Source of the DNA: Shinella zoogloeoides
GTDB lineage: Bacteria; Pseudomonadota; Alphaproteobacteria; Rhizobiales; Rhizobiaceae
Direction: 5' to 3'
Length of the DNA: 64,000 nucleotides
Assembly: GCF_030733845.1 (NCBI RefSeq)
Contig: NZ_CP132313.1
Coordinates: 434,001 to 498,000, forward strand
The position numbers and the translations under genes were made by a program. Below the pieces are notes generated by a model, which made no database searches, was not told the origin of the DNA, and worked only from the letters and a program-made list of their open reading frames with translations. This document shows, piece after piece, positions 32,950 to 49,322 of this stretch. How positions within the stretch are numbered: position 1 is the stretch's first letter; each line of letters begins with the position of its first letter.

Positions 32950-33336
32950 ATGGTAAAAAGTAGCCTAGAAAACAAACGTATCCTCATTTTGGAGGACGAC
33001 CCTCTCCTCGCCCTCGACCTGGAAGATTTCTTCACGGAAGTCGGCGCCAAGGTGATCGGCCCCGTCTCAAGCGTCGAGCAAGCCCTTGAGGCGGTTTCTT
33101 CCGGCATCGACGGGGCGGTTCTCGACCTCAATCTAAGAGGCGTTTACTCCTATCCCGTTATCGAAATACTCGCCAAGGCCGGGACACCCCTCGTCGTCTG
33201 TTCTGGATATGCTGAACTGCCTGACACCCGGACAGAACTAACCGACATCGTGCTGCTGCCGAAACCTTGTGACCTCAGGGTTTTGCAGGCCCGGCTCGCG
33301 GAGCAGATTGCCGCAACGCCCCAGACGGCCTTCTAG
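32950..33336 (+). CDS. Stand-alone receiver-domain response regulator
   Basis: A 128-residue single CheY-like receiver. The acidic pocket is ILEDD, the phosphoacceptor is Asp59 (GAVLDLNLRG), and the switch Lys is in LLPKPCD. No output domain. ATG 32950 is preferred; a GTG at 32920 is in frame. It opens the light/two-component block and is convergent with the HWE kinase at 33379. It may be a phosphate sink or partner for that kinase. Confidence 0.85.
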   Translation: MVKSSLENKRILILEDDPLLALDLEDFFTEVGAKVIGPVSSVEQALEAVSSGIDGAVLDLNLRGVYSYPVIEILAKAGTPLVVCSGYAELPDTRTELTDIVLLPKPCDLRVLQARLAEQIAATPQTAF

Positions 33337-33378
33337 ACGCGCTAGATCCGAGCCGGCGAAGTATCGAAACAGGACTCC

Positions 33379-34401
33379 CTAGGCAGATACGGTCCTTACC
33401 GCTTCACTCTCGGGGATAGGCACGTCGATCTCTGCCTTGAAGCCTTCCGGCGGGTAATGGAGGCTCGCCTGCCCTCCCAACTCATATTCGATATTGGCCT
33501 TTATGAGCCGGGTGCCGAACCCTTCGTCACCCGGCACCTTGATGGCCGGCCCGCCATGCTCCGTCCAGCTGAGGCGCACGGATCGCCCTAGATTCGTCTT
33601 GTCGACTGCCCACGCTATGGAGATCCGCCCCTGCTCATTGGCCAGCGCCCCGTATTTCGAGGCATTCGTCACGAGCTCGTTGAAGACCATTCCAATGGAA
33701 AGCGCGGTCTTGGGGTCTAGCCGAACGAGATCGTGCCGTCCGATGTCGAAGCGCGCCAAATCCTTGTTATGTGGCCGAACCGCGCGCTGGAAAACACTCA
33801 GAAGTTCGGTCTCGTCCCAGTTGCCCTCGAACAACAGCTCGTGGGCATCCGCCAGCGCGGAAATGCGGGCAAGGAGTTTCTCCTCGAACTCCGCGACCGA
33901 TCTGCAACTGCGGCCGGTTCGACGAATGAGCGAAAGCACGACCGCGAGATTGTTTTTCACGCGATGGCTGAGTTCGCGGACAAGCAAATCCTTCTGCTGC
34001 TCGATCCGCCGGCGCTCCGCCCGCTCGCGCGCTTCGTTCAGCGCGCGCGTCACGGCAGCGGGCAACCGAGCCAGGCGCGGCTTGAGAACATAGTCCGTCG
34101 CGCCCTTGCGGAACGCTTCAATGGCGGCGTCCTCTCCAAGAACACCGGAGACGAAGATAAAAGGCGCATAGGGAGCCGAGGCGACCGCCAGCTCAAGCGC
34201 GGCCATTCCATCGAAATCCGGGAGCGAGAAATCCGAAAGGATCACGTCGAACGTGTCGTCTGCCAGCGCAGCCTGATAAGCCGCGCGCGTAGCGACGCGC
34301 TTCACGGCGAAGGCTTCGTCCAGGCTTTCGAGCTGCGCCTCAATGAGTTCAGCATCGATAGTGCTGTCTTCCAGCAACAGGATACGCAGCATTCCGGCCA
34401 T
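33379..34401 (-). CDS. Receiver-HWE/HisKA_2 histidine kinase
   Basis: A 340-residue cytoplasmic protein. Residues 5-120 are a receiver (phosphoacceptor Asp57 in VILSDFSLPDFDG). Residues about 140-330 are an HWE/HisKA_2-type kinase: phospho-His146 in RELSHRVKNNLAVVLSLI and ATP-binding NELVTNASKYGAL. These kinases often act in light and general stress pathways in alphaproteobacteria. The ATG at 34401 lies one base from the stop of the upstream response regulator, so bphP, the response regulator and this kinase form one minus-strand operon. The receiver may be fed by the phytochrome branch. Confidence 0.85.
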   Translation of the reverse strand: MAGMLRILLLEDSTIDAELIEAQLESLDEAFAVKRVATRAAYQAALADDTFDVILSDFSLPDFDGMAALELAVASAPYAPFIFVSGVLGEDAAIEAFRKGATDYVLKPRLARLPAAVTRALNEARERAERRRIEQQKDLLVRELSHRVKNNLAVVLSLIRRTGRSCRSVAEFEEKLLARISALADAHELLFEGNWDETELLSVFQRAVRPHNKDLARFDIGRHDLVRLDPKTALSIGMVFNELVTNASKYGALANEQGRISIAWAVDKTNLGRSVRLSWTEHGGPAIKVPGDEGFGTRLIKANIEYELGGQASLHYPPEGFKAEIDVPIPESEAVRTVSA

Positions 34402-34402
34402 A

Positions 34403-34861
34403 TCAGTTGCCACCAACCTGCCGGAGCTTCGGCGGGGCCTCGTTGACAAGCGCCCAGAAAACACCGAGGTCCTGAATCGCTTTGAAGAACTGGTTGAACT
34501 CGACCGGTTTGACCACGAATGCGTTGACCCCGAGCTCGTAGCTTTTCACCAGATCCTGCTCTTCACGGGAAGAGGTGAGCATGACAACCGGAACGTGGCG
34601 CAGGCTCTCGTCACGCTTCACCTTTTCGAGCACCTCCAGTCCGTCGACTTTGGGAAGCTTGAGGTCGAGTAGCACCACGGCGGGATCGCCGGGATCGCGG
34701 CCCGCGTGGGAACCGCTGAGATAGAGGAAATCCAACGCCTCGGCACCATCGCGGGCAACCACGATGTCATTGGCGATCTGACACTTTTCAAGTGCCGTCA
34801 GGGTCAGTTCGAGATCCCGGGGATTGTCTTCAACGAGCAAGATAGGCCTCAGTTCTGGCAC
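34403..34861 (-). CDS. Phytochrome-linked response regulator (Rcp1-like)
   Basis: A 152-residue single-domain receiver of the Rcp1 type that commonly partners bacteriophytochromes. The acidic pair is in LLVEDNPRDLELT, the phosphoacceptor is Asp66 (VVLLDLKLPKVDG), the conserved Thr is in VVMLTSS and Lys in FVVKPVEF. It lies 3 bases downstream of bphP and directly upstream of the HWE kinase. It probably receives phosphate from the phytochrome. Confidence 0.88.
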   Translation of the reverse strand: MPELRPILLVEDNPRDLELTLTALEKCQIANDIVVARDGAEALDFLYLSGSHAGRDPGDPAVVLLDLKLPKVDGLEVLEKVKRDESLRHVPVVMLTSSREEQDLVKSYELGVNAFVVKPVEFNQFFKAIQDLGVFWALVNEAPPKLRQVGGN

Positions 34862-34864
34862 GGA

Positions 34865-37033
34865 TCACTCCTCAGGTAGCGCCGGTAGGGAAAAAGTGAA
34901 GCATGAGCCCTCGTCAACCGTGCCCATGGCGTCCACGCTGCCGCCATGCCGCTCGACGATACGCTTGATGAGGGCAAGGCCGATACCTGTGCCCTCGAAA
35001 TCCTCGCTTCGCTGCAGCCGCTGGAATACACCGAACAGCTTGGACTTGTAAGCCATGTCGAAGCCGACGCCGTTGTCCGCTATCCGGTACAGCACGCCGT
35101 CGTCGGTCAGGGCAGCGGATATCTCGATATGCGCCTCCTCACGCAGCCGCGTATATTTGACCGCGTTGTCGATGAGATTGTACCAGACCTGCCGAAGGAG
35201 GGTGGCGTCCCCCGTCGCAGCGGGCAGATCTTCGACCTGCCAAACGATCGAGCGGCCCGCCGTTTCCTCCGCCAGTCCCCGCCGCACCTCCGCGACGAGC
35301 TTGTTCATATCCACCTTGTCCGTGGAGAGCGTTGCTCGACCGAGATGGGAAAACGTCAGGAGATCGTCGACGAGCTCCCCCGCGGCCAGCGCCGAATCCG
35401 AAATCATCTGGAGATAATGGCGCGAGCGCTCGCCGAGGTCCTTCTCCCGCTCCGTCAGAAGCTGGGAGAAGCCGACGATATGGCGGAACGGCGCCCGCAG
35501 GTCGTGCGAGATCGAATAGGAGAAGGCCTCCAGTTCCCTGTTGGACTTCTGAAGGTCGGCGGCAAGCCTGGCCAATTGTTCCGCCTTCTTCAGCACGATC
35601 TCCACGATAGAGGCGCGCAGGTCTCGGGCGGCGGCGATCTCTGCCGGATGCCACGGCGCGCTCCTGCCGCGCACCATCTCGCGCCATGCTTCGAAAGACT
35701 TGCGGGGATGGATCCGGCCGCTCTCCCGCACTACCTTGTGCGGATCTCCCCCCCAGGTGACCGTCTTGACGACTTCCTGGCGGAACCAGATAAGCCAGCT
35801 ATCTTCCACTTGGGAAATGCGCACGGCGAGGACACCGCAGGTCCCGTCGGCGAATCCATCGTCCTGCGGGAAATCCGAGGCAACGGAGGCCGTGATGTAG
35901 AAATCGGCCACCGCACCGGGCTCTGAGAGACGGCCGATCAGACGCCTCACCTCCGGTTCTTCCGGTGCCGCACCGAGAGGCAGGAAGCTGTCTTGCGACA
36001 GGATCGCGGCGCCATCCGCCCGGGTGAGTTCCAGCAGCGTTGCTGGCGCGCCGGCCAGCCCTTCTTCCCATCGGTCGGCCTGCGCCATTGCGGCCAAGAG
36101 CTTGCCATGCACACGTGCGAGCTCGACGCCGAGTGCTGCCGTCTCGGCCCGGCTGTCAGAACTTATTCGCATGGCAAGACTCTGGACCACGAAATCGCAG
36201 GCCTCGCGTATGTCACCTGCTACATGGTGGGGATTGCGGCTGTGGCAGGACAGGAGGCCCCAGAGCTTGCCCTCCACCATGACCGATATCGACATGGATG
36301 AAAGCGTGCCCATGTTGCGCATATATTCGAGATGGACCGGCGACACGCTACGAAGCTGCGTGAAGGTCATGTCGATGGCGCCCGCATCCTGCTCTTTACC
36401 AAATGCAATCAGCGGGACCGGCTTGTAATTCGCATCGGGGATCAGGCGTATGCGGTTGAGGCTGTAGAGATTGCGGGCCTGTGCCGGAATATCGGCAGCG
36501 GGGAAACGAAGGTCGAGATAGGAAGGCAGGGTACCGTTGCCGGCTTCGGCCACGACATGCCCGTTCCAGTCGGGATCGAACCGGTACACGAGAGCCCGGT
36601 CGAAGCCGGTCAGGTTGGCGATCAGGTGCGCGGTCGCGGAAAGCGCCTCCGCCAGCACCTCGGTGGCCGTCATTTGCTGTGCGAAGCCCGTCAGGCGAAA
36701 AAGAAGCTGGTTGTGAACTGCGGGCGTGCTGCGTTCGAACTCGACGATAACGCGGCCTTGATGGACATGCGCGGACATGTCGACGTCCGGATCCTCTAGA
36801 CGGGCGCGATATACATTGGCTCCGCTTGCTTGCCAGGTCTGCAGAGTAGGCTCGATCAACCGGCGTAACCCGATCGGCGTCCGGCCCGTGATTTCCTCGA
36901 AATTTGCCGATGCCCAAAGGATATCCAGATTTGCGGGATCAAGAACAAGCAGAGATCCATGGGGCTGGATAGCACCGGGAACATGAATCGGCTCGCGTGC
37001 GCAAGCATCAAGATCGGTTTGCCTCCCTGACAT
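34865..37033 (-). CDS. bphP: Bacteriophytochrome histidine kinase
   Basis: A 722-residue red/far-red light sensor. Domains in order are PAS (about 5-110), GAF (120-300), PHY (310-470), HisKA (490-560) and HATPase (600-720). The biliverdin-binding cysteine is Cys11 (DACAREPIHVPGAIQPHG). GAF has DIPAQAR at 181-187, with FPAADIP where PASDIP is usual, plus His234 (SPVHLEYMRNMG) and His264. The PHY tongue has PRKSF at 443-447. The phospho-His is His510 in SYSISHDLRAPF. The ATG at 37033 has a GAGAGGA site. Its chromophore can come from the heme oxygenase at 40382. Confidence 0.93.
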   Translation of the reverse strand: MSGRQTDLDACAREPIHVPGAIQPHGSLLVLDPANLDILWASANFEEITGRTPIGLRRLIEPTLQTWQASGANVYRARLEDPDVDMSAHVHQGRVIVEFERSTPAVHNQLLFRLTGFAQQMTATEVLAEALSATAHLIANLTGFDRALVYRFDPDWNGHVVAEAGNGTLPSYLDLRFPAADIPAQARNLYSLNRIRLIPDANYKPVPLIAFGKEQDAGAIDMTFTQLRSVSPVHLEYMRNMGTLSSMSISVMVEGKLWGLLSCHSRNPHHVAGDIREACDFVVQSLAMRISSDSRAETAALGVELARVHGKLLAAMAQADRWEEGLAGAPATLLELTRADGAAILSQDSFLPLGAAPEEPEVRRLIGRLSEPGAVADFYITASVASDFPQDDGFADGTCGVLAVRISQVEDSWLIWFRQEVVKTVTWGGDPHKVVRESGRIHPRKSFEAWREMVRGRSAPWHPAEIAAARDLRASIVEIVLKKAEQLARLAADLQKSNRELEAFSYSISHDLRAPFRHIVGFSQLLTEREKDLGERSRHYLQMISDSALAAGELVDDLLTFSHLGRATLSTDKVDMNKLVAEVRRGLAEETAGRSIVWQVEDLPAATGDATLLRQVWYNLIDNAVKYTRLREEAHIEISAALTDDGVLYRIADNGVGFDMAYKSKLFGVFQRLQRSEDFEGTGIGLALIKRIVERHGGSVDAMGTVDEGSCFTFSLPALPEE

Positions 37034-37340: not shown

Positions 37341-37745
37341 ATGGCCGCATCGCAGTCCACCATTCTCGTCGTCGAGGACGAACCGCTCATCAGCCTCATA
37401 CTGATCGAGGCGTTGCAGGATGAGGGCTACCGGGTTCTGGCGGCATCCAATGTCCTGGAAGCCATCGGCCATATAGCAAGACACGCCGAAATCGACGGCC
37501 TGGTCACGGATGTCGATCTGCCCGGCGGGCTGAGTGGCATCGATCTGCTGAAACTGTTCAGCAATTGCAGGCCGGACGCGGCCAGGATCGTTGTTTCGGG
37601 AAGAGGCGATCTGCAGGAGGCGACATTGCCGGCGACGTGCCGAACCTTCGCAAAGCCCTACAGACTGGGCGACGTGATCGCCGAATTAGACAACCAGATC
37701 AAGGCGAAAGACGCCGGCCTGTCTGCCCGGAGCGTGCGTTCGTAG
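37341..37745 (+). CDS. Stand-alone receiver-domain response regulator
   Basis: A 134-residue CheY-like protein (ILVVEDEPLISLILIEAL). The phosphoacceptor is Asp57 in GLVTDVDLPGGLSG and the switch Lys is in TFAKPYRLGDV. A CTGGAG site precedes the ATG. It sits upstream of the hybrid kinase at 37901 on the same strand with a 155-base gap that includes a GC-rich hairpin. No output domain. Confidence 0.85.
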   Translation: MAASQSTILVVEDEPLISLILIEALQDEGYRVLAASNVLEAIGHIARHAEIDGLVTDVDLPGGLSGIDLLKLFSNCRPDAARIVVSGRGDLQEATLPATCRTFAKPYRLGDVIAELDNQIKAKDAGLSARSVRS

Positions 37746-37900
37746 CGTCACGGCGCGACGGCCGGCAGTTGGCCGCGCCGGCGCAACATCACTTCTCTTA
37801 TATTCCTCTCAATTTTTTTAAAAATTTTCACAGCGTTACGGTGCTTTTCAATTCTTCGGACTGATCCATATAAGCCCGCGACACATCGAGAAACGGCAAA

Positions 37901-40363
37901 ATGACCCTCACTCCAAACGCAGTCAGCGAGATGAACCAGCGCATTCGGGCGATCGACTGGGAGAAAACATCCTTTGGTGCCGAAGCCGACTGGCCGCAGG
38001 AACTACGGATGGCGCTGAGCCTGTGTCTCGCCACTACGCTTCCTACGGCGCTCTATTGGGGAGACGATCTTCGTCTTCTGTATAACGACGCCTGGGCGCC
38101 GATTGCGGGAGAAAAACACCCTTGGGCACTGGGGCGCCCGGCCCGCGAGGTCTGGGCCGATATCTGGCACGTGATCGAGCCCCAACTCCACGCCGTGCTG
38201 CAGACCGGCCAGGGATTTTCGGTCACCGATCAGATGCTGCCCATGCAGCGCGGCGGTCGCATACAGCTAACCCACTGGGACTACAGCTTCGCGCCGATCT
38301 TCGGACAGAACGGCAAGGTCCTCGGCATATTCAACCAAGGCAACGAGACGACGGCGCGCCTGTCGGCCGAGCGGGCGCTGCGCGCCAGTGAGGAGAGGCT
38401 GGAATATGCTCTTGGCGCATCGGATACGGTGGGCACATGGGATTGGGACATCCCCAATGACCGGGTGATTGCCGATGCGCGCTTTGCCAAACTCTACGGC
38501 GTAACGCGCGAAAAGGCCGCCGCCGGGGCGCCGATTGCCGATTTCTTCAATGCCATCCACCCGGACGATCTTCCCCATGTGGAAAAGGCCATTGCGGCGG
38601 CCTTGAAGGATGGCAGCGTTTTTTCCCAGGAATACCGTCTCCTCCAGCCGGACGGCGCGCACAGATGGGTCATCGCCGAAGGCCGGCCGACGCTTGCGCC
38701 CGATGGGACGCCTCTGCGCTTCCCCGGCATCAGCTTCGATATAACCGACCGTAAAGATGCAGAAGCCGCTCTCCGCGACAGCGAGGAGCGCCTCCGGGCG
38801 ATCACGAACTCCATCGACCAGATGATCTGGTCGACGACGCCGGATGGATACCACGACTACTATAACCAGCGCTGGTACGATTTCACTGGGGTCCCGCCAG
38901 GTTCGACCGATGGCGAGGGCTGGGCCGGCATGTTCCATCCCGAGGATCAGGACCGTGCCTGGTCCGTCTGGCGGCGTAGCCTGGAGACGGGCGAGCCCTA
39001 TCACATCGAATATCGGCTTCGGCACCGTAGCGGAAAATACCGCTGGGTGCTGGGCCGCGCGCAGCCTGTGCGCAATGAGGATGGTGCAATCACCCGCTGG
39101 TTCGGCTCCTGTACGGACATCCAGGACATTGTCGATGCGCGAGAGGTGCTCGCCCGGTCTCGCGAGGAGCTTGAAAAGGAAGTGCAGGAACGAACCGCCA
39201 GGCTCATCGACGCCGAAGCGCAGCTTCGGCAGGCGCAAAAAATGGAAGCCGTCGGCCAACTCACCGGAGGCGTGGCCCATGACTTCAATAACATGCTGGC
39301 CGTCATTCTCGGCGCGATGAACCTCCTTGAAAGACGCCTGGCCCGCGGGGAAACAGATCTAGCGCGTTACATCGAGGCCGCCAAGGACGGGGCAAACCGT
39401 GCCGCCGCCCTCACCCAGCGCCTGCTTGCCTTCTCCCGTCGCCAGCCGCTTCAGCCTGAAATCATCGAACCGAACCGCATGGTCACGGGCATGAGTGATC
39501 TGCTGGCGAGAGCCCTCGGAGAGCAGGTCCAGGTCGAAACCGTGCTCGCCGCGGGGCTATGGCGCATTAATGCGGATGTCAGCCAACTTGAGAACGCGAT
39601 CCTCAATCTTGCCGTCAACGGCCGCGATGCCATGCCGAACGGCGGCCGGCTGACGGTCGAAACCGCCAACACATTCGTCTCAGAGGACTATGCCCAAGAA
39701 CATTCGATGTCGCCCGGCCAATATGTGATGATTGCCGTCACCGATACGGGCACGGGAATGAGCAGCGACACGCTCGCGAAAGCGTTCGATCCCTTTTTCA
39801 CGACAAAAGAGGTCGGCAAAGGGTCCGGCCTCGGCCTGAGCCAAGTTTTCGGCTTCGTACGCCAGTCGGGCGGACACGTAAAGATCTATTCCGAACCGGG
39901 CCACGGAACCACCGTGAAGCTCTACCTCCCACGTCATTACGGCGAGGCGGAAACCAGAGACATAACACCGCAGAATGTCGAGCCTGCTCGTGGCGCACAT
40001 GGCGAACTCGTACTGGTGGTGGAAGATGACGAGCGGGTGCGCAACTTCTCCGTCGAGGCGCTACGCGAACTCGGTTACACGGTGGCGGAAGCCAATAGCG
40101 GGGCGGCAGCGCTAGCCCTGTTGGGAGAGGGCCTGAAGCCCACGCTCCTCTTTACCGATATCGTTATGCCGGAGATGACGGGCCGCGAGCTCGCCACGCT
40201 GGCATCGAAAGATCTAGGTGAACTGAAGGTACTTTACACGACCGGCTACACCCGGAACGCCGTCGTTCACAACGGCATCCTGGATCCAGGAACCCATCTG
40301 CTTCAAAAGCCTTTCAGTCTGGAGCAACTGGCTGAAAAGGTTCGACGCGTGATCGATGGCTAG
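37901..40363 (+). CDS. PAS-containing hybrid histidine kinase
   Basis: An 820-residue cytoplasmic sensor kinase with no membrane helix. An N-terminal PAS-like domain (about 20-155; [20 protein letters not shown]) is followed by two PAS/PAC modules (about 160-290 and 290-420). A HisKA domain has phospho-His460 ([18 protein letters not shown]), an HATPase follows ([27 protein letters not shown]), and a C-terminal receiver has Asp753 ([13 protein letters not shown]). The ligand is unknown; the second PAS type ([10 protein letters not shown]) is common in blue-light or redox sensors but no LOV cysteine motif is seen. It lies between bphP and its chromophore enzyme, so it likely belongs to the same circuit. 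Confidence 0.88.
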
Positions 40364-40381
40364 TCGGCATCCAGTTTGACG

Positions 40382-40939
40382 TCAGGATACGGCGACCCGC
40401 TCTGTCTCGACGCACCGCAAGGCGAGGTCGAAGACCGCATTGGCGGCCCGGTCGGCGCATTCGATGTCGAAGTCTTCAGCGTCGTCCAGTTGACGAAGAA
40501 AGGACTGCCAGTGCGAGATGTCGCGCGTCATCACCGCCAGATGCCGTGCACCGAAACTATCAGTCATTCCCAGCGCAGCGGCTCGTGATTTTAGAACCCG
40601 CGCGCCTAGGGTGGATCCTTCCAGAACGTAAAGCGCACCCAGCAGTGCACTGTGATTATCAAATGGAGCGATAGAAGTGTGGGCGTCCGTTAGCCGGATA
40701 CCTAGATCCGAGGCGTCCTGCGCAATCGAATCGTACACGGCCTGCGGGCGCCAGGACCAATCCCTCGGCCAGATGACATTGTGCATAACGCGATCCATCG
40801 CAAAGCGAAATCTGCCGATAAAGGCAACATATCCGCGATACTCTTCAACGCTTTGAAATACGCCGATCAAGGCATCGAGCTTCTCGTGCTTGTATCGTGT
40901 TCGATCCCGAAGCCCGAACCTCCTTTCACTATGCCTCAT
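40382..40939 (-). CDS. bphO: Biliverdin-producing heme oxygenase (BphO-like)
   Basis: A 185-residue heme oxygenase. The proximal heme ligand is probably His18 (RTRYKHEKLDALIG). The distal helix segment GALYVLEGSTLGARVL is the family signature with the flexible glycines. It cleaves heme to biliverdin IX-alpha, the phytochrome chromophore. The ATG at 40939 has a GGGAG site. It is transcribed convergently with the hybrid kinase rather than in the bphP operon. Confidence 0.87.
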   Translation of the reverse strand: MRHSERRFGLRDRTRYKHEKLDALIGVFQSVEEYRGYVAFIGRFRFAMDRVMHNVIWPRDWSWRPQAVYDSIAQDASDLGIRLTDAHTSIAPFDNHSALLGALYVLEGSTLGARVLKSRAAALGMTDSFGARHLAVMTRDISHWQSFLRQLDDAEDFDIECADRAANAVFDLALRCVETERVAVS

Positions 40940-41046
40940 GTGCTCCCGTCAAGAAGCGTATCGTCGTGCAACCACGCGGAAGAGATTTCCCCATACAACG
41001 ATCGTACCAGAGTTAAGGACCGGAAGCACCTGAGAAGCTTAGATGT

Positions 41047-42378
41047 TTAAGCGCCCTGCAAGTTTTGGAATATTCGATCGGATTCTCCTCGGACCGACCA
41101 TGGCCGCATAACTCCACCCAGGTTCTCACCAACAGCCAAGCCCGCTTGGATTGCATCTTCATGAAAGCCGGATCCGAAATAGGACCCACAGAACCAAGTG
41201 TTCGCTTCACCCTGCAGCGACCATAGTTGCCGTTGGGCGGTTAGAGTCGCCGCATTGAAGAGCGGATGCTGGTAGAGCCCGCGCCAGATTACCTTGTCTT
41301 CGGCCGGGGCATGTAAGGGGCTAAGCGTGACGAAGTACGGACGAGGATCGGAAATCCCCTGCAACCGGTTCATCCAGTAGGTGACACAGGGCTTGCGCAT
41401 CGCCGCGCCGTCACGTCCGGATTGCGCGAGGTAGTTCCAGCTTGCCCAGACACGCCTGCGACTTGGCATCAAAGTTTCGTCCCGATGAAGCACCGTCTCG
41501 TTGTCGCCATAGGCGAACACGTTCAACAGTTCATCTTCGCGTGGGGAGCGGTCGGCAAGCATCGCCAGTGCCTGGTCGGCATGGGCGCCGATCACGACGT
41601 GATCGAACCATTCGGCCTCGCCGCCACCCACGGAAATCTCAACCGCGCCGTTGACGCGACGGATTGACCTCACCGGCGCATTTGTCCGGATCCTGTCGCG
41701 GAATGACGCGGTAAGACGCTCGACATAGGCGCGACTTCCGCCATCGACCGTTCGCCAGATTGGTCGGCGCACGAATTTCAGCAAGCCGTGGTTCTCGCAG
41801 AAGCGCACGAAGGAAAGCGCCGGATAATTCCCGATCTCAAGTGCCGGTGTCGACCAGATCGCAGCCGCCATTGGATAAAGGTGGTCTTCGCGAAACGCCC
41901 GCCCGAAGCCGGCGCTATCGAGATAGTCGTTGAGGCTAGCGGAAGGATCGAGATTGCGCACGCCGCTTGGCGCCTGACGGTAGAAACGCATGAGGTCTCG
42001 CAGCATCGACCAGAAGCGCGGGCTGGCGAGGTTGCTGCGCTGGGCGAAAAGACCGCCAAGGTTCGCGCCGGCATATTCCAGCTTCCCACCGTCCATCGAA
42101 ACGGCGAAGGACATGTCCGACGCCTTGGTCGGCACGTCGAGATGTGCGAACAAAGCCGTGAGGTTGGGATAGGTCGCCTCGTTGTAGACGATGAAGCCTG
42201 TATCGACCGGCGCGCCGCCGGCATCCACCGTGTGCGAATGGCCGCCAATACGATTGTCGGCCTCGAAAACCGTCACGTCGTGGCGTTGCGACAGCAACCA
42301 CGCCGCTGAAAGACCGGCAACGCCCGTGCCGACGATCGCGATTTTGAGTGGCCGATCCGATTGAGGAAAATGGCGCAT
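41047..42378 (-). CDS. FAD-dependent amine-oxidase-family protein of the RpoE-ChrR regulon
   Basis: A 443-residue flavoprotein. The dinucleotide-binding motif is KIAIVGTGVAGLSAAWLLS with the acidic end of strand 2 in VFEADNRIGGHSHTV. The C-terminal FAD motif is WFCGSYFGSGFHEDAIQAG. Similarity is to the flavoproteins linked to unusual fatty acids and to the singlet-oxygen response in Rhodobacter sphaeroides. ATG 42378 has an AAGGGT site; upstream in-frame starts would lie inside the promoter region. It is divergent from rpoE and has its own TGATCC-N18-TAAAGG promoter. Confidence 0.85.
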   Translation of the reverse strand: MRHFPQSDRPLKIAIVGTGVAGLSAAWLLSQRHDVTVFEADNRIGGHSHTVDAGGAPVDTGFIVYNEATYPNLTALFAHLDVPTKASDMSFAVSMDGGKLEYAGANLGGLFAQRSNLASPRFWSMLRDLMRFYRQAPSGVRNLDPSASLNDYLDSAGFGRAFREDHLYPMAAAIWSTPALEIGNYPALSFVRFCENHGLLKFVRRPIWRTVDGGSRAYVERLTASFRDRIRTNAPVRSIRRVNGAVEISVGGGEAEWFDHVVIGAHADQALAMLADRSPREDELLNVFAYGDNETVLHRDETLMPSRRRVWASWNYLAQSGRDGAAMRKPCVTYWMNRLQGISDPRPYFVTLSPLHAPAEDKVIWRGLYQHPLFNAATLTAQRQLWSLQGEANTWFCGSYFGSGFHEDAIQAGLAVGENLGGVMRPWSVRGESDRIFQNLQGA

Positions 42379-42422: not shown

Positions 42423-42452
42423 CCTTTACGAGCGGAGACTTCTGACGGATCA
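42423..42452 (-). promoter_or_regulatory. RpoE (ChrR-type ECF) promoter for the amine oxidase gene
   Basis: Minus strand TGATCC (42452-42447), 18 bases, TAAAGG (42428-42423). Predicted start near 42416, about 38 bases before the ATG. It shares TGATCCGTCAG with the site at 46651-46680. Confidence 0.7.
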
Positions 42453-42478: not shown

Positions 42479-42508
42479 TGATCCGCTTTGAAGAGCACCG
42501 CGTAGAAG
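42479..42508 (+). promoter_or_regulatory. RpoE (ChrR-type ECF) autoregulated promoter
   Basis: TGATCC (42479-42484), 18 bases, TAGAAG (42503-42508). The predicted start falls at the chosen rpoE ATG (42514), so the RpoE-driven transcript may be leaderless or use a later start, while a second upstream promoter would supply the GAAGGA ribosome site. Confidence 0.65.
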
Positions 42509-42513: not shown

Positions 42514-43152
42514 ATGAATGAAGCTTCGAACCCCGTTGAGCGTGATCACAAACCCGGTTTCCAGACCGGCCGGCGGCTTGCTGTGGTAAGTTCAAGGGAC
42601 AAACAACAAACGCCCTCGCCCGATGCACTTGTCGACATGATGAGACAGGTCTCGCAGGATAGGGACCGTCAAGCTTTTGCCCTCCTCTTCCGCCATTTCG
42701 GGCCGAAGCTGAAAACCTTCTTCCTGCGCTGGACGATGTCGTCCGTCGCGGCGGAGGATCTCGTACAGGAGACGATGCTGACCGTTTGGCGCAAGGCATC
42801 GTATTTCGATGCGGATCGCGCGGGGGTCGCCACCTGGATCTTTACGGTCGCGCGCAACATTCGCATTGATCACCTGCGACGGCAGAAGGACCCCTCGGCT
42901 CTGCCGCCAGATCCTGAAAACGCAGCCGATACGGTCGAGGACGGAATGCTCGGCGCCGAGCGGGATGCGGCGGTGCGCGACGCGCTAACCGCGCTCTCGC
43001 CCGAGCAACAGACGATCATTCGCCTCTCGTATTTCAGCGAGAAATCGCAGACTGAAATCGCCGATGAGCTGGGCATCCCGCTCGGCACCGTGAAATCTAG
43101 AACACGCCTGGCCATGAACCGGCTTCGCGGGCTGCTGGAAGACAGATCATGA
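42514..43152 (+). CDS. rpoE: ECF sigma factor, RpoE of the RpoE-ChrR type
   Basis: A 212-residue group-4 sigma factor. Region 2 is AFALLFRHFGPKLKTFFLRW through AEDLVQETMLTVWRKA. Region 4 is LSPEQQTIIRLSYFSEKSQT, then IADELGIPLGTVKSRTRLAM. Pairing with a ChrR-type zinc anti-sigma (stop and start overlap ATGA) puts it in the ECF11 group that answers singlet oxygen and organic hydroperoxides. It should drive the TGATCC promoters in this block. ATG 42514 has a GAAGGA site; longer in-frame starts would pre-date the autoregulated promoter. Confidence 0.92.
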   Translation: MNEASNPVERDHKPGFQTGRRLAVVSSRDKQQTPSPDALVDMMRQVSQDRDRQAFALLFRHFGPKLKTFFLRWTMSSVAAEDLVQETMLTVWRKASYFDADRAGVATWIFTVARNIRIDHLRRQKDPSALPPDPENAADTVEDGMLGAERDAAVRDALTALSPEQQTIIRLSYFSEKSQTEIADELGIPLGTVKSRTRLAMNRLRGLLEDRS

Positions 43153-43805
43153 CCACCACACATCACGCAACCGACGAGACCCTGATGCGTTATGCGGCCG
43201 GCACGCTTGCCGCCGCGCCCGCCATCGTCGTCAGGGCGCATCTGGCGAGCTGCCCGGCCTGCCGCGCCCGCGTCGGCGAATATGAAGCGCTGGGCGGCGC
43301 GCTCCTGGAAGAAACGGAACCGACGCAGATGTCGGCAACTGCACTGAACGACGTCCTCGCCATGCTCGATGACGAGGATGCCGCCCCCGCCCTCCTCGCA
43401 CCGCCGCCGCTGGCGCCGGTAGAGATTGAAGGCATTCGCCTGCCGGACGCCTTGCGCGGCTGCGATATCGGACGCTGGCGCTGGATCGGCCCCGGTATGA
43501 AGATGAGCCGGGTCGGCGTGCCGCAGGATCCGGATGCCAATCTCATCTTGCTCAAGGTCGCCCCCGGCCGCGCGCTTCCCGACCACGGGCATGTCGGCAC
43601 CGAGTTCACCTACATCGTATCGGGATCGTTTTCCGACCGTTTCGGCCGGTTCCTCCCCGGGGACCTTGCTGAAATGGATGAGGATGTCGAGCACCAGCCG
43701 ATCGTCGACAAAGATGGCGAGTGCATCTGCCTCGCCGCCCTAGAAGGCAAGATGCGCTTCAAGAACGTCATCGGCCGCATGCTGCAGCCGATCTTCGGGA
43801 TCTGA
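43149..43805 (+). CDS. chrR: ChrR zinc-binding anti-sigma factor
   Basis: A 218-residue cytoplasmic anti-sigma factor. The N-terminal anti-sigma domain has zinc ligands His6, His31, Cys35 and Cys38 (HLASCPACRARV), the same residue numbers as in Rhodobacter sphaeroides ChrR. The C-terminal cupin has His146, His148, Glu152 and His182 (PDHGHVGTEFTYIVSG; EHQPI), matching the second zinc site. The full ligand set suggests a working singlet-oxygen-responsive switch. Translationally coupled to rpoE. Not related to chromate transport despite the name. Confidence 0.93.
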   Translation: MTTTHHATDETLMRYAAGTLAAAPAIVVRAHLASCPACRARVGEYEALGGALLEETEPTQMSATALNDVLAMLDDEDAAPALLAPPPLAPVEIEGIRLPDALRGCDIGRWRWIGPGMKMSRVGVPQDPDANLILLKVAPGRALPDHGHVGTEFTYIVSGSFSDRFGRFLPGDLAEMDEDVEHQPIVDKDGECICLAALEGKMRFKNVIGRMLQPIFGI

Positions 43806-43808: not shown

Positions 43809-44624
43809 ATGTCGGCGGCGGCGCTCTTCCTTTTTCTGGCCGCCGCTATCTCGCTGGGCATGGCAGCCGTTTGGCTCGCGGTCGTGAAGGGGGCGGGATC
43901 CGGCTGGGTCGATACCGTCTGGTCCTTTCTCGTGGGCGGGGCCGGTGTCGCCGCCGCGCTTGTTCCGGTTTCGGGCTGGGAGGGCGATGGGCAGCGACGG
44001 CTTCTCATGGCAGCGGTGGCCGCGCTCTGGTCTTGTCGTCTTGGCCTGCATATCCTGCGGCGCACACTGAAAGGCGGTGAGGATCCTCGCTACGCGAAAC
44101 TTCAGGAGGAATGGGGCGAACGCTGGCGCTGGCGTCTCTTCCTGTTTCTGCAGATCCAGGCCGCCGCCGCGCTTCTCCTGACCACCACGATCTTCGCCAC
44201 AGCACGCAACCCGGCCTTGGGCTGGCAGTGGAGCGATATTGCCGGCATCGCGATCATCGTCATCGCCGTCGTGGGGGAAGGCATTGCCGATGCGCAGCTG
44301 GCGCGGTTTCGCGACGACGACACCAACGGGGGTAAGGTCTGCGATGTCGGGCTCTGGGGCCTGTCGCGCCATCCCAACTATTTCTTCCAGTGGTTCGGAT
44401 GGGTTGGTTATGCAGTCGTGGCTGTTGGTCCTGCCGGAGATTGGGGCTGGGGTTGGCTGGCGCTTGCAGGCCCCGCCCTGATGTATTGGCTGCTTGTGCA
44501 CGTTTCAGGGATTCCGCCGCTTGAAGCGCACATGATGCGTTCGCGTGGCGCTGCCTTCACCGCCTATGCCAGGCGCGTCAATGCCTTCTGGCCGGGCCCA
44601 CAAAAACGGGAGCAGACGACATGA
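43809..44624 (+). CDS. DUF1295-family membrane protein
   Basis: A 271-residue inner-membrane protein with about seven helices. The C-terminal signature CDVGLWGLSRHPNYFFQWFG (steroid-reductase/isoprenylcysteine-methyltransferase-like NADPH or SAM pocket) and the ending EAHMMRSRGAAFTAYARRVN identify DUF1295. Lies 3 bases after chrR and overlaps the next gene (ATGA). Operon position beside fatty-acid-modifying enzymes suggests a lipid substrate, perhaps reduction of an unsaturated lipid; this is inference. Confidence 0.82.
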   Translation: MSAAALFLFLAAAISLGMAAVWLAVVKGAGSGWVDTVWSFLVGGAGVAAALVPVSGWEGDGQRRLLMAAVAALWSCRLGLHILRRTLKGGEDPRYAKLQEEWGERWRWRLFLFLQIQAAAALLLTTTIFATARNPALGWQWSDIAGIAIIVIAVVGEGIADAQLARFRDDDTNGGKVCDVGLWGLSRHPNYFFQWFGWVGYAVVAVGPAGDWGWGWLALAGPALMYWLLVHVSGIPPLEAHMMRSRGAAFTAYARRVNAFWPGPQKREQTT

Positions 44625-45658
44625 ACCTTGCCGTTACCGCCATCACCGCCGCCGAGCGGCTACCGTTACCCGATCATGCCCTGCGCTTCGGTATCAGCCG
44701 GCTCGTTGGCCGCACGCGCCGGCTACTGGCGGAAGGGAGCGGTCCGACGGACCGGGACTTTGCGCGCTCCATGAGCGAATGGCCCATCGCCGTGCATACC
44801 GATGATGCCAATGCCCAGCACTATGAGCTTCCCGCGGCATTCTTCTCGCTGGTGCTCGGCCCGCGCCGCAAATATTCATCCTGTTTCTATGCCTCGCCCG
44901 CCACGACACTCGCGGAAGCGGAAATCGCGGCGTTGGAAGAGACATGCCGTCACGCGGACCTCGCCGACGGGCAGGACATCCTCGAGCTCGGTTGCGGCTG
45001 GGGATCCCTCTCGCTGTTCATGGCAGAGCGCTTTCTGTCCGGTCGCATCGTCTCCGTTTCGAATTCATCCTCGCAGCGGACTTATATCGAGGCGGAGGCC
45101 AAGCGCCGCGGCCTTCGCAATCTCACCGTGATCACCGCGGATATGAACACCTTCTCGCCGGATGGCACCTTCGACCGCATCGTGTCGGTGGAAATGTTCG
45201 AGCACATGTCCAACTGGCATTGCCTGCTCCAGCGTGCACGCAGCTGGATCCGTGACGAGGGGCGGCTTTTCCTGCACGTCTTCTCGCATCGCAAGACGGC
45301 CTATCGCTTCGACCATGCCGACAAGGCGGACTGGATTGCGCAGTATTTCTTTACCGGCGGCGTCATGCCCAGCCATGGACTGGTTCGCGCGTTCGACGAC
45401 AGTTTCACCGTCGAGCGGGACTGGCGTTGGAACGGCAAACATTACGAGCGCACCGCGCGGGACTGGCTCGACAATTTCGACCGAAACCGCGACGCGGTCC
45501 GAGCCATCTTCGAGGCGACCTACGGCAAGGACGCATCCGTCTGGATGCGGCGCTGGCGAATGTTTTTCCTCGCCACGGCCGGGCTCTTCGGCCATGCCAA
45601 TGGAGAAGAATGGGGCGTGAGCCACTATCGCCTCAGCCCCGCCGGCGCAGGCCGGTGA
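44621..45658 (+). CDS. Cyclopropane-fatty-acid-synthase-family methyltransferase (short form)
   Basis: A 345-residue SAM-dependent methyltransferase. SAM motif I is ILELGCGWGSLSLFMAERF; the region FDRIVSVEMFEHMSNW is the family's second motif. It lacks the roughly 80-residue N-terminal domain of true Cfa and differs from the second family member at 48039. In Rhodobacter the RpoE regulon includes a related methyltransferase needed for furan fatty acids, so methylation of an unsaturated phospholipid chain is a good guess. Coupled to neighbours on both sides. Confidence 0.82.
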   Translation: MNLAVTAITAAERLPLPDHALRFGISRLVGRTRRLLAEGSGPTDRDFARSMSEWPIAVHTDDANAQHYELPAAFFSLVLGPRRKYSSCFYASPATTLAEAEIAALEETCRHADLADGQDILELGCGWGSLSLFMAERFLSGRIVSVSNSSSQRTYIEAEAKRRGLRNLTVITADMNTFSPDGTFDRIVSVEMFEHMSNWHCLLQRARSWIRDEGRLFLHVFSHRKTAYRFDHADKADWIAQYFFTGGVMPSHGLVRAFDDSFTVERDWRWNGKHYERTARDWLDNFDRNRDAVRAIFEATYGKDASVWMRRWRMFFLATAGLFGHANGEEWGVSHYRLSPAGAGR

Positions 45659-46254
45659 TCTTCTTTGTGAAACGCCTCACCGCGATGGTACGGGCCTACG
45701 CGCACCATCGCAACCCGCGTGTCGCTGCGGCGAACGTGATTTCCTTGCTGGTCGCGTCGAACCAGCCCTTTTACCCGCTCTATCTCTTCTGGTTGGTGAG
45801 TGCCGACATCACCGCCGCCTGGTTCACGTTCCTGTCGACACCGTTCTTTCTCTCCGTGCCGGCCGTGGCGCGCCGGAATGATGTTGCAGGGCGGGCTCTG
45901 CTGCCGCTGGCGGGGATCTGCAACACCGTGCTTTCGGCATGGCTCTTCGGCACGGCTTCGGCAGTTGAAATCTTCCTTGTTCCATGCGGAGTCATCGCGC
46001 TTCTCCTGTTTCGGCCGCGGGAGCGCGTCGTCGCCCTTGCGCTTGCCGCGCTCGCCTTCGGCGTTTTCCTTCTCTTGCACGATGCCTATGGTCTGCCGCT
46101 CGCACGGTACGACGCGGCGCAATACGCCGCGTTGGCGCGGCTCAACCTTGTGAGCGCATGCGTGCTCACCGCCTTCGTCACCATCCTGTTCTCAGGCATC
46201 CTTGCTGAGGCCGAACAATCAGCCGACGCGGCTCGCCGCGAGAAAGCCGGCTGA
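45655..46254 (+). CDS. Multi-pass membrane protein of the rpoE operon, unknown function
   Basis: A 199-residue protein with six predicted helices (VISLLVASNQPFYPLYLFWL; AGICNTVLSAWLFGTASAVE; ALALAALAFGVFLLLHDAYG among them). A GTG start at 45655 overlaps the preceding TGA (GTGA). It ends the rpoE-chrR operon and overlaps the convergent DUF2177 gene by 36 bases. I do not recognise the family. It could hold lipid-modifying partners at the membrane. Confidence 0.65.
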   Translation: MIFFVKRLTAMVRAYAHHRNPRVAAANVISLLVASNQPFYPLYLFWLVSADITAAWFTFLSTPFFLSVPAVARRNDVAGRALLPLAGICNTVLSAWLFGTASAVEIFLVPCGVIALLLFRPRERVVALALAALAFGVFLLLHDAYGLPLARYDAAQYAALARLNLVSACVLTAFVTILFSGILAEAEQSADAARREKAG

Positions 46255-46620
46255 TGCGCCGACCGCGGTCACGAAAGCACCCCAGGGAATATCGGCGAGC
46301 GTAACGGAAAGCGGCCAGTCCTTGAGCGTCGCCTGGTTGGTGAGATCGTAGGTCGCATATGCCACGAGACCGAGGACCGCACCGTTCAGCGCCGCCTTGC
46401 CGAGCCCACCCCCATCGAGCGCAGGCATCACGGCGAAAAACACGATGCCGACAACATAGATCAGATAGAACACAACGGCCGGTGCCAGATGAAACTGCGG
46501 CGCCAGCTTGTCGCCCAGGAGCGGCCGGTACAGCATATCCGCCATCGTCGAAAGCCAGATGGCATCGACGATCAGAAAGGCGATGCCGGTCGCCAGATAG
46601 GCGATGACGATGGTTTTCAT
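46219..46620 (-). CDS. DUF2177-family membrane protein
   Basis: A 133-residue protein with four helices (MKTIVIAYLATGIAFLIVDA; LAPAVVFYLIYVVGIVFFAV) and the family motif GLVAYATYDLTNQATLKDWP. The ATG at 46620 follows a TGATCC-N18-TAGAAA promoter on the same strand. Members of this family recur in RpoE-ChrR regulons. Molecular function unknown. Confidence 0.8.
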   Translation of the reverse strand: MKTIVIAYLATGIAFLIVDAIWLSTMADMLYRPLLGDKLAPQFHLAPAVVFYLIYVVGIVFFAVMPALDGGGLGKAALNGAVLGLVAYATYDLTNQATLKDWPLSVTLADIPWGAFVTAVGASAGFLAASRVG

Positions 46621-46650
46621 ACCGATGTCTCCCACGACGTTTTATCGACA

Positions 46651-46680
46651 TTTCTACGTCTTTGTCGTCCTGACGGATCA
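46651..46680 (-). promoter_or_regulatory. RpoE (ChrR-type ECF) promoter for DUF2177
   Basis: Minus strand TGATCC (46680-46675), 18 bases, TAGAAA (46656-46651). Same spacing as the sites at 42423-42452 and 42479-42508. Confidence 0.7.
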
Positions 46681-46687
46681 CCTCGGG

Positions 46688-46717: not shown

Positions 46718-46741
46718 AGGAAAAGCAACGAGGATTGGCCG

Positions 46742-47122
46742 ATGAGGATAGCCGTTCTGACTGCACTTTCCGCTCTGACACTGACTGCCGCGGCCTCCCA
46801 GGCGCAGCAATCCGCCGATCCAAGCGGTGTCTGGCTGCGCGACGACGGGAACGCGCGTGTGCGCATCGCACCATGCGGCCGCAATATCTGCGCGACCAAT
46901 CTCTGGATCCGGGATACCAGCAAAGGCGAAGAGGCCGGCGACCGCCTGATCATGTCGCTTCAGCCCAAATCGCCGGATACATTGTCCGGCACCGCCTTTG
47001 ATGAGAAACGCGATCGCACTTATTCGATCACGGTGCAGGTATCCGACAAATCGCTTTTAACGCGTGGCTGTATCCTCGGCGGCGTGCTTTGCAAGAATGT
47101 GCGCTGGCGGCCTGCTCGATGA
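46742..47122 (+). CDS. DUF2147-family secreted protein
   Basis: A 126-residue protein with a signal peptide (hydrophobic core residues 4-17, cleavage likely after Ala21). The mature part has the DUF2147 opening DPSGVWLRDDGNARVRIAPC followed by a small beta-barrel. Cysteines at 45 and 50 and near the end (CILGGVLCKNVRW) may form periplasmic disulfides. The stop overlaps the DUF1365 start (ATGA). Function unknown. Confidence 0.8.
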   Translation: MRIAVLTALSALTLTAAASQAQQSADPSGVWLRDDGNARVRIAPCGRNICATNLWIRDTSKGEEAGDRLIMSLQPKSPDTLSGTAFDEKRDRTYSITVQVSDKSLLTRGCILGGVLCKNVRWRPAR

Positions 47123-47967
47123 TGAACGGAAAGAAGCAGGGCATGAAGCAGATCCGGGTCACCAGCATGGCAGACAACGGCCCACCGCCCTCTGCGGCCG
47201 GTACGCTTTATCCGGGAAAAGTGATGCACCAGAGGCTCCATCCCTTCTGCCATCGCTTCAGCTATAGCGTCTTTTCTCTTCTGATCGATGTCGACCGGCT
47301 TGTCGCTCTTGCCGGACAGACCCGCTTGCTTGCCGTGAACCGCGCGGGAATTCTGTCGTTCCACGAGCGCGATCACGTCGAAGAGGACGGCGAGACGTTG
47401 CGACAGTTCGCCGACCGCCTGCTGGCGCCCGCCGGTCTCGAAAGGCCCGCGGCCCGTATACTGCTCCTCGCCTACCCGCGCATGTTCGGTTATGTCTTCA
47501 ACCCGCTCTCGACCTATTTCGCCTATGACGACGAAGACCGGCTGATTGCCATCATCTATGCAGTCAGGAACACCTTCGGCGAACGCCACAGCTACGTGGC
47601 ACCGGTCCTTGCGGGCGACATCAGCGCCGCCGGCATCAGGCAGACGCGAACGAAGGTTTTTCATGTTTCCCCCTTCATGGACATGGGGCTGCGCTACCAT
47701 TTCCGCATTCTCCCGCCCGGCAGGACCGTACGGGTGCGAATTCATGAGACCGCCGGCAAGGACCCCGTCATGGCCGCCACGTTCAATGCGGACGCGGCGC
47801 TGCTGACGGACGCCGTGCTGGCGCGCTGCCTGATCCGGTTCCCCTTCATGACGATGAAGGTGATGGCCGGCATCCATTGGGAAGCCTTCAAGCTGTGGCT
47901 GAAAGGGGCGCGCTTCCGCACAAGTCCGCCACCGCCGGAAACCGCGAGTTACACAGACGCCGCGTGA
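47119..47967 (+). CDS. DUF1365-family protein of the RpoE-ChrR regulon
   Basis: A 282-residue cytoplasmic protein. The family opening is VMHQRLHPFCHRFSYSVFSL and later motifs are YPRMFGYVFNPLSTYFAYD and FMDMGLRYHFRI. In Rhodobacter sphaeroides a DUF1365 protein, an amine-oxidase-like flavoprotein and CfaA are needed for normal ChrR turnover in singlet oxygen; all three types are present here. ATG 47119 overlaps the previous stop; ATG 47122 is an alternative. Confidence 0.83.
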   Translation: MMNGKKQGMKQIRVTSMADNGPPPSAAGTLYPGKVMHQRLHPFCHRFSYSVFSLLIDVDRLVALAGQTRLLAVNRAGILSFHERDHVEEDGETLRQFADRLLAPAGLERPAARILLLAYPRMFGYVFNPLSTYFAYDDEDRLIAIIYAVRNTFGERHSYVAPVLAGDISAAGIRQTRTKVFHVSPFMDMGLRYHFRILPPGRTVRVRIHETAGKDPVMAATFNADAALLTDAVLARCLIRFPFMTMKVMAGIHWEAFKLWLKGARFRTSPPPPETASYTDAA

Positions 47968-48038
47968 ACCGGTTTCGAACACACGGCGTCTGAAGCGCCT
48001 GCACCCATAGTTTTATCGAATTTTTTCAGGAAGACATC

Positions 48039-49322
48039 GTGCTCGCATTAGCAAGAATATTCAGACGTGGTCTTAGAGAGAACAGAGCGGGGACCGGACT
48101 TTTCGCGCGTGCAATGGACGCCGTCATTTCATCAGTCGATATCGGGAAAATCACGGTCGTCCTGCCCTCCGGCGAACGTATTGAACATGTCGGAACACGC
48201 CCGGGGCCTTCGGCGGCGATCACTATTCACAAATGGCGGGCCGTCCGCCGGCTCGCGACAGGCGGTGATCTCGGCTTCGCTGAAGCCTATGTCGACGGGG
48301 ACTGGTCGACGCCGAATCTGGAAGCCACCCTGGAACTGGCCGCACGCAACATCGATATGCTCGATGGGAAGATTTCAGGTCACTTGGCGATCAGGCTGCT
48401 GCAGCGGTTTCGCCATGTTCTGCGCGCGAACAACAAGACCGGCAGCCGGAAGAACATCGCCTATCACTACGACCTCGGCAATGCCTTCTACAGGGAGTGG
48501 CTCGATCCGAGCATGACCTATTCCTCCGCACTCTACACGGAACCGACCCTCAGCCTGGAAGAGGCCCAAAGGGCAAAGATAGAGCGAGTCAAACAGCTCC
48601 TGATGATCGAAGGTGGAGATCGCGTTCTGGAGATCGGCTGCGGTTGGGGAGCGCTCGCCGCAAGTCTCGGCCACGCAGGCGTCGAGGTGGAAGGGGTCAC
48701 GCTCTCCCCCGCGCAACTGGACTACGCGACGGAACACATCCGGGCCAGCGGTCTGGAGGACGCGGTACGTCTGCAGTTGAAAGACTATAGGGATGTTACA
48801 GGGACCTATGATCGGATCGTCTCCATCGAGATGCTGGAAGCGGTAGGCGAGGCCTATTGGCCCCTGTTCTTCAAAACGCTGCAGCAAAGGCTTCGCGCGG
48901 GCGGACACGCCGTGCTTCAGGTCATCACGATCGACGAGAGCCGTTTTGCCGCATATCGAGGCGGTGCAGATTTCATTCAGCGACATGTCTTCCCTGGCGG
49001 CATGCTTCCGACCAAAGGCATAATTCAGGAGCAGGCCGCGCGCGCAGGACTTCAATTGGTGCAATCCGAGTACTTTGGATTGGATTATGCTCGAACGCTC
49101 CTCGAATGGCGGCGACGCTTCCATGCTGCTTGGCCCAGGATTAGCGCATTAGGTTACTCCAAACAGTTCCACCGGTTGTGGGACTATTATCTTTGTTACT
49201 GCGCGGCCGGTTTTAAGGCCGGAACCATAGATGTCGGCCTTTACGTCCTCGAACGGCCTGCCGACCCGACTCGCCCAAGGCGGGAAACTGCCGCGCTTAT
49301 TCCCACGCTTCCTGGTAACTGA
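48039..49322 (+). CDS. cfa: Cyclopropane-fatty-acyl-phospholipid synthase
   Basis: A 427-residue full-length CFA synthase with the N-terminal lipid-binding domain (about 1-115) and the SAM domain (VLEIGCGWGALAASLGHAG; VEGVTLSPAQLDYA; YDRIVSIEMLEAVGEAYW). HVFPGGMLPTKGII and the C-terminal YYLCYCAAGFKAGTIDVG are family landmarks. It methylenates unsaturated phospholipid chains in the membrane, protecting against oxidation. A GTG start follows CAGGAAGAC. It lies 71 bases after DUF1365 with no convincing promoter of its own, so it may be co-transcribed. Confidence 0.92.
   Translation: MLALARIFRRGLRENRAGTGLFARAMDAVISSVDIGKITVVLPSGERIEHVGTRPGPSAAITIHKWRAVRRLATGGDLGFAEAYVDGDWSTPNLEATLELAARNIDMLDGKISGHLAIRLLQRFRHVLRANNKTGSRKNIAYHYDLGNAFYREWLDPSMTYSSALYTEPTLSLEEAQRAKIERVKQLLMIEGGDRVLEIGCGWGALAASLGHAGVEVEGVTLSPAQLDYATEHIRASGLEDAVRLQLKDYRDVTGTYDRIVSIEMLEAVGEAYWPLFFKTLQQRLRAGGHAVLQVITIDESRFAAYRGGADFIQRHVFPGGMLPTKGIIQEQAARAGLQLVQSEYFGLDYARTLLEWRRRFHAAWPRISALGYSKQFHRLWDYYLCYCAAGFKAGTIDVGLYVLERPADPTRPRRETAALIPTLPGN

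Follow-up and report, generated by a model that had tools for sequence, protein, structure and literature searches.

Within a 64,000-nucleotide stretch of the Shinella zoogloeoides genome (assembly GCF_030733845.1, contig NZ_CP132313.1, positions 434,001 to 498,000; hereafter the window), a bacteriophytochrome locus lies beside the genes for an RpoE-ChrR sigma/anti-sigma pair and a set of lipid enzymes. This island is real and made of known parts, and such a neighbourhood is rare. We consider it probable that two independently conserved modules adjoin here on a repABC megaplasmid of the Shinella group, possibly linked via a heme oxygenase (HO). Module 1 (32.9-40.4 kb) would be a red/far-red phosphorelay composed of the phytochrome BphP, an Rcp1-like receiver, a receiver-HWE kinase fusion (RR-HWE) and accessory receiver and PAS-kinase genes. 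Module 2 (41.0-50.0 kb) would be an RpoE-ChrR regulon of extracytoplasmic function (ECF) group ECF11 for modified, probably furan or methylated, membrane fatty acids, in which singlet oxygen would cause loss of ChrR and release of RpoE, as in Rhodobacter. HO would be what remains of a bphO-bphP2 operon after the loss of its phytochrome from this genome; it would supply biliverdin to BphP and may at least partly be read through from the RpoE-driven gene of a flavin adenine dinucleotide (FAD) protein, so that singlet oxygen could raise the chromophore supply. HO is the only link discernible between the blocks, and nothing points to RpoE and BphP controlling each other directly, in either direction. 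The island features are:

32950..33336, + strand, free receiver RRa (Response_reg 28.4 bits, just below the Pfam cut-off of 30.2; kept beside HWE in other genera)
33379..34401, - strand, receiver-HWE histidine kinase fusion (HWE_HK, E 8e-20; Response_reg, E 3e-13)
34403..34861, - strand, Rcp1-like single-domain response regulator (Response_reg, E 5e-20)
34865..37033, - strand, bacteriophytochrome BphP with Cys11 (Pfam PHY, E 4e-52; best solved match 5hsq)
37341..37745, + strand, free receiver RRb (Response_reg)
37901..40363, + strand, hybrid PAS histidine kinase with receiver (PAS_3 twice, HisKA, HATPase_c, Response_reg)
40382..40939, - strand, heme oxygenase HO (Heme_oxygenase profile; solved-structure match)
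41047..42378, - strand, FAD amine-oxidase-like protein, UfaD-like (Amino_oxidase; start from comparison with Ensifer sp. PDNC004)
42427..42452, - strand, predicted RpoE-type promoter of the FAD gene (perfect site, conserved in relatives)
42479..42504, + strand, predicted RpoE-type promoter of rpoE-chrR (perfect site, conserved in relatives)
42514..43152, + strand, RpoE, ECF sigma factor paired with ChrR (Sigma70_r2, Sigma70_r4)
43149..43805, + strand, ChrR anti-sigma factor (TIGR02451; solved ChrR 2z2s; the only Cupin_7 match in the genome)
43809..44624, + strand, DUF1295 membrane protein (Pfam)
44621..45658, + strand, CMAS1, cyclopropane-synthase-like methyltransferase (Pfam CMAS, E 5e-43)
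45658..46254, start uncertain, + strand, MASE7-like membrane protein (Pfam MASE7, E 1e-7 on a longer open reading frame)
46219..46635, - strand, DUF2177 membrane protein (Pfam)
46655..46680, - strand, predicted RpoE-type promoter of DUF2177 (perfect site, conserved)
46742..47122, + strand, DUF2147 protein (Pfam)
47140..47967, + strand, DUF1365 protein, putatively UfaO-like from gene order (Pfam, E 7e-76)
48039..49322, + strand, CMAS2, cyclopropane fatty acid synthase-like (Pfam CMAS, E 1e-80)
49325..50074, + strand, hemH with its 3' end lost (ferrochelatase profile 1-214 of 317)

The contig (C4) is a 585,062 bp replicon of the Shinella genome, and since RepC is encoded in the window (63147-63668) it is of the repABC kind, in agreement with the plasmid location given in the original prediction. 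The genes named there (BphP with Cys11, HO, an Rcp1-like regulator, an HWE kinase, two receivers, a hybrid PAS kinase, RpoE-ChrR and lipid genes) are all present, and all gene identities were upheld by Pfam or NCBIfam profile matches, with RRa slightly under the Pfam cut-off. The lipid set is larger than was proposed: it also includes the MASE7-like, DUF2177 and DUF2147 genes, and the earlier end at 49322 cuts a block that runs through hemH to 50074. The island is contiguous over about 17 kb, and a plasmid of Ensifer sp. PDNC004 shares its gene order at 88% identity, with dN/dS values of 0.05-0.35 across 14 genes from both blocks. The single PHY match, the single detected HO and the single ChrR-cupin match of the genome all lie inside it.

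BphP has a PAS_2-GAF-PHY-HisKA-HATPase architecture (722 amino acids counted from the ATG at 37033), and Cys11 shares an alignment column with a Cys of the solved chain 5hsq_A. As judged from its sequence, the protein thus has the PAS-GAF-PHY core, N-terminal Cys and kinase output by which a bacteriophytochrome is recognized. The Rcp1-like regulator occurs at 65-97% identity beside BphP in loci L036-L037, L042-L049 and L054-L055. Rhizobiaceae modules L042-L049 have the same RRa-HWE-Rcp-BphP order (44-82% identity) and differ in that the fetched stretches contain no RpoE-block gene and no HO at E 1e-8; beside BphP in L047 there is a weak HO match (25%, E 0.004).

HWE-type kinases of this sort feed PhyR. 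Through its HWE kinase and PhyR/EcfG, the light module might act on the general stress response rather than on RpoE, with the two blocks working in parallel under sunlight, a possibility that we hold tentatively and that is compatible with two adjoining modules linked via HO. The kinase half of RR-HWE matched the NCBIfam LOV blue-light kinase model with 130 bits (cut-off 450) and PhyK weakly with 35 bits (cut-off 750). EcfG-like promoter sites, searched with a loose pattern, were rejected since they showed no excess (5 in the window against 3.9 expected) and none occurred at 32-41 kb, which counts against such a connection.

On the other side of HO, the rpoE and chrR genes overlap by 4 bp, and ChrR combines a zf-HC2 domain with a ChrR cupin, as expected for an ECF11 RpoE-ChrR pair. 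ChrR scored 228.7 (cut-off 124.5) on the NCBIfam ChrR-family model TIGR02451 and aligned with solved structure 2z2s. The starts of rpoE (~42514) and the FAD gene (~42378) were set by the PDNC004 annotation, the long open reading frames overlapping each other. Two papers (PMC7380195, PMC6852236) describe an ECF11 core regulon in R. sphaeroides and Rhodopseudomonas palustris that shares RpoE-ChrR, an FAD amine oxidase and cyclopropane fatty acid (CFA)-synthase-like methyltransferases with the island; UfaD appears there as RSP1091 in the furan fatty acid regulon. Unlike that regulon, the Shinella genes are gathered in one plasmid block together with DUF1295, DUF2177 and DUF2147, and the block, to which this search was confined, has no photolyase or short-chain dehydrogenase gene. 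Candidate furan fatty acid enzymes are the FAD protein, the DUF1365 protein (whose gene immediately follows that for the FAD protein in many relatives) and the two CMAS proteins, assigned from family and gene order alone.

To locate RpoE-type promoters the pattern TGATCC-N16-CGTA was scanned in perfect, one-mismatch and looser versions, with the reversed pattern as control. Three of the eight perfect sites in the genome belong to the island, where they precede rpoE, the FAD gene and DUF2177. The conserved site at 42479 predicts the autoregulation that is typical of ECF11, and a one-mismatch site beginning at 46688 (+) precedes DUF2147-DUF1365. Allowing up to one mismatch gave 213 sites genome-wide versus 96 for the reversed pattern. 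The three perfect sites are kept in 12 of 13 loci (L002-L005, L016-L024), L023 having two. Among the 20 CMAS1 loci L016-L035, all ten with ChrR carry two or three perfect sites versus a single site in one of the ten without ChrR. Five perfect sites lie beyond the island, at C2:660979, C2:3896232, C3:69125, C4:169073 and C4:398102. Between 31000 and 41000 no spacer-16 site with fewer than two mismatches was present, so none occurs at any light gene, and the BphP block was rejected as a direct RpoE target; HO could be reached by read-through only.

The two blocks are also conserved separately. We compared the 18 island proteins by tblastn with the fetched loci and with 66 GTDB loci of the FAD gene. 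RRa-HWE-Rcp-BphP recurs as a conserved set in other Rhizobiaceae, with no RpoE block in the stretches that were fetched. FAD-RpoE-ChrR-DUF1295-CMAS-MASE7-DUF2177-DUF2147-DUF1365 recurs as another in Shinella, Rhizobium and Mesorhizobium, with no BphP. In the flanks of the 66 FAD-gene loci, phytochrome genes were detectable only in S. curvata (as fragments) and in Methylocapsa. The edges in blastn are sharp: contig C26 of Shinella sp. WSJ-2 matches 32889-40367, stopping 4 bp past the PAS-kinase stop, and in relatives without HO the lipid-block matches begin at 41024-41067, HO lying between the blocks.

Close linkage of the blocks is infrequent. Among 394 Rhizobiaceae genomes, PHY was found in 155, CMAS1 in 49 and both in 35, an overlap read by eye from the two tables. 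The markers are within 15 kb of each other in two of these 35 genomes (that of the window and G350, Ensifer sp. PDNC004), with no PHY position listed for three (G131, G151, G267), and in draft genomes a linked pair may be concealed by a contig end. The next nearest pair, in G061, is about 118 kb apart. Extra PHY places of G153 and G356 are also not listed; no BphP match was seen in their CMAS1 loci (L035 and L029), which were fetched with about 14.6 kb on one flank and 3.8 kb on the opposite one. As a marker, CMAS1 gives too high a count for the RpoE block: leaving aside the window and PDNC004, ChrR occurs at 10 of 20 fetched CMAS1 loci. Eight of those ten genomes have PHY, which together with the window and PDNC004 makes ten genomes with both; two of these are linked, and a third, S. 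curvata, retains fragments. Among PLSDB records, BphP matched 95, of which 60 are listed, and CMAS1 matched 42, all listed; one of the eight records found in both lists has its listed places within 15 kb, second BphP places of some records not being shown. The blocks are therefore not always apart, as PDNC004 demonstrates, but they nearly always are. Two Caballeronia plasmids from two species (L144, L145), with BphP 15-17 kb from an RpoE-like/CMAS/FAD block, were not counted as linked; they have no ChrR match and many unidentified open reading frames in between. A Roseateles 'BphP' match (L116) was rejected as a CHASE/MASE1 kinase.

Traces of the join are found in close relatives. Contig C3 of S. 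curvata has, beside the FAD gene and collinear with the window, the beginning of HO and 87 residues from the kinase region of BphP, the two fused directly (L017:10513-10933) in what appears to be a deletion scar of the island. The join therefore seems to be older and to have been cut down later by deletions. In S. kummerowiae (CCBAU 25048) one contig opens at base 1 with the light block (85%), and the lipid block of a second contig stops 80 bp beyond the FAD gene; these ends would face each other across the HO gap, which is compatible with linkage. WSJ-2 carries the two blocks on separate contigs, with an HO (71% DNA identity over 240 bp) and a second phytochrome further along C26. Shinella sp. 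SUS2 has just a 34% phytochrome, located elsewhere, and in the plasmid record of PSBB067, the part of that genome searched, no match reached E 1e-60. Close linkage appears confined to few Shinella-group replicons and lost or broken in relatives.

HO is the sole biliverdin source detected in the genome. Its Pfam match is weak (E 5e-5), yet it matches the solved pa-HO structure 1sk7 (E 1e-11) with a His aligned to the pa-HO His. It is the single heme oxygenase match in a protein search of the genome, in which the Pfam model misses it; a PF01126 survey of 385 class-level genomes missed even this HO and was set aside for that reason. In Shinella H4-D48 the HO gene overlaps the start of a second phytochrome gene, and since a PHY search found no second PHY protein in the window's genome, HO looks like an orphan. 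It lies 107 bp downstream of the FAD gene on the same strand, and the gap contains no recognized terminator and no significant fold (z -1.5); no sigma-70-like promoter was found in 40300-41200, in keeping with read-through. The sole terminator-like site in the scan (40827-40812) is inside HO, at chance rate. If RpoE does drive HO, ChrR, which senses damage, would govern the pigment on which the light sensor BphP depends, and in non-phototrophic soil bacteria photo-oxidative stress would feed back on the perception of light. Such a feedback can be tested, and the proposed step from RpoE to heme oxygenase is the claim that merits an experiment.

A related connection has been published for Pseudomonas syringae DC3000. 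According to PMC5507510, the RpoE-ChrR homologue PSPTO_1043/1042 acts on PSPTO_1900-bphO-bphP, and the PSPTO_1043 motif, TGATCC-N16-CGTA, is the same as the island pattern. The evidence there includes a ChIP-seq (chromatin immunoprecipitation sequencing) peak, 12.85-fold higher bphO upon sigma overexpression and lower promoter-lux activity in a sigma/anti-sigma double mutant. P. syringae thus resembles Shinella in the sigma/anti-sigma homologue and promoter pattern, and its candidate regulon includes a heme oxygenase. The promoter directly precedes the bphO-bphP unit in P. syringae, whereas in Shinella only HO is reachable, via read-through, and BphP is in another unit. In Methylocapsa palsarum (L134:5561-9879) a perfect site (9879, -) heads a one-strand run of DUF2177, HO, BphP and a LuxR regulator, divergent from FAD-DUF1365-CFA. 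As in Shinella, phytochrome and lipid genes are adjacent at a perfect RpoE-type site, and the genome encodes an ECF sigma factor and ChrR in overlapping genes, with a perfect site near the sigma start. Differences are the HisKA_3 phytochrome with its LuxR-type regulator and the location of the sigma-ChrR pair on another contig. It is conceivable, though we think it unlikely, that RpoE-ChrR-type sigma factors took over biliverdin supply, and hence phytochrome competence, more than once, through promoters in Methylocapsa and P. syringae and through read-through into an orphan HO in Shinella. If so, light damage would set the red-light sensitivity of the cell. A heme oxygenase described in PMC3597554 was rejected as an ECF11 parallel because it belongs to an iron-type ECF gene.

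Several observations weigh against two modules linked via HO. A frameshift divides the HO gene of PDNC004, so either that plasmid has not preserved the link from FAD gene to HO or the record is in error. The sigma-70 scan, whose result was negative, is insensitive in such genomes. A loose site (TGATCC-15 bases-CCTA) at 34867 (-) lies just before the Rcp gene and might be active, though loose sites occurred at chance rate (13 versus 10.8 expected). None of the 19 family BphP loci L037-L055 has a perfect site, and 100 order-level BphP loci (1.2 Mb, 39 with a detectable HO; a batch leaving out 17 weaker places outside the family and seven inside it, including that of the window) yielded one, within a BphP gene (reversed control 0). 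No perfect site therefore precedes HO or BphP in these 119 other loci. The 600-bp upstream regions of 120 BphP and 46 HO genes (98 kb) contained two one-mismatch sites, both before HO (L162, L217), versus one for the reversed control, and an RpoE-type promoter before BphP or HO was rejected as an order-wide rule. The P. syringae study reports a small ChIP signal and a promoter unresponsive to singlet oxygen or tert-butyl hydroperoxide (PMC5507510). The product proposed for the lipid genes is deduced solely from family membership and gene order. A tree of 17 loci, built on seven proteins, splits off the window, PDNC004, S. kummerowiae, WSJ-2, S. curvata, PSBB067 and SUS2 copy a with support 1.00; inside this group (supports 0.78-0.98, no species tree compared) linked and unlinked members are intermixed, which would fit both a single gain followed by losses and repeated gains.

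Part of this evidence would suit pure hitch-hiking, in which a plasmid rearrangement made the blocks neighbours and HO has its own promoter and no functional link. The separately conserved modules with their clean boundary, the broken HO of PDNC004, the HO of S. curvata that was cut down where most of the adjoining light block is gone, and the lack of perfect sites before HO or BphP, and of any excess of one-mismatch sites there, all agree with it. We nevertheless regard hitch-hiking as somewhat improbable, since HO-BphP operons stand behind the same promoter pattern in Methylocapsa and P. syringae (PMC5507510), and since the window carries a single, intact HO that directly follows a gene with an RpoE-type promoter. 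Even without coupling through HO, the adjacency on this megaplasmid is not in itself pathway evidence, because each block is conserved without the other and few replicons join them.

One integrated light-response unit, in which a signal from BphP would activate or prime the RpoE-ChrR regulon, protecting membranes before singlet oxygen forms, is very unlikely: the contiguous order in two genera, the S. curvata fragments and facing S. kummerowiae contig ends that suggest more than a one-off join, and the Azospirillum brasilense BphP cited as conferring tolerance to red-light photodynamic stress and singlet oxygen (PMC4618731 and PMC5654926) are set against light genes lacking any spacer-16 RpoE-type site with fewer than two mismatches, the scarcity of linked genomes and of FAD-gene loci with a phytochrome, and close relatives in which the light module is elsewhere or not found. 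The original prediction of one mobile light-response module thus holds for the contiguous plasmid block shared with PDNC004, and is weak for a single regulatory unit, since perfect RpoE-type promoters are limited to the lipid block, the modules are conserved apart and the order is not conserved across replicons. It had also noted no known description of the combination as a unit; in open-licence literature, coverage that is no proof of absence, we found no description of the island as a unit, although the P. syringae link was already in print.

At the far end of the lipid block, hemH lacks its 3' third, about 315 bp of the PDNC004, Shinella SUS2 and S. kummerowiae sequences being missing at 50040/50041; contig C2 carries another ferrochelatase gene that matches the whole profile. 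Beyond it, the open reading frame at 51981-53798 seems fused, with an exonuclease-like N-terminus and an amidohydrolase-like remainder, and may mark a rearrangement junction. Upstream of RRa, a GGDEF gene at 31299-32543 looks frameshifted: its membrane and GGDEF parts are apparently in separate open reading frames, and the GGDEF profile is covered only to position 97 of 161.

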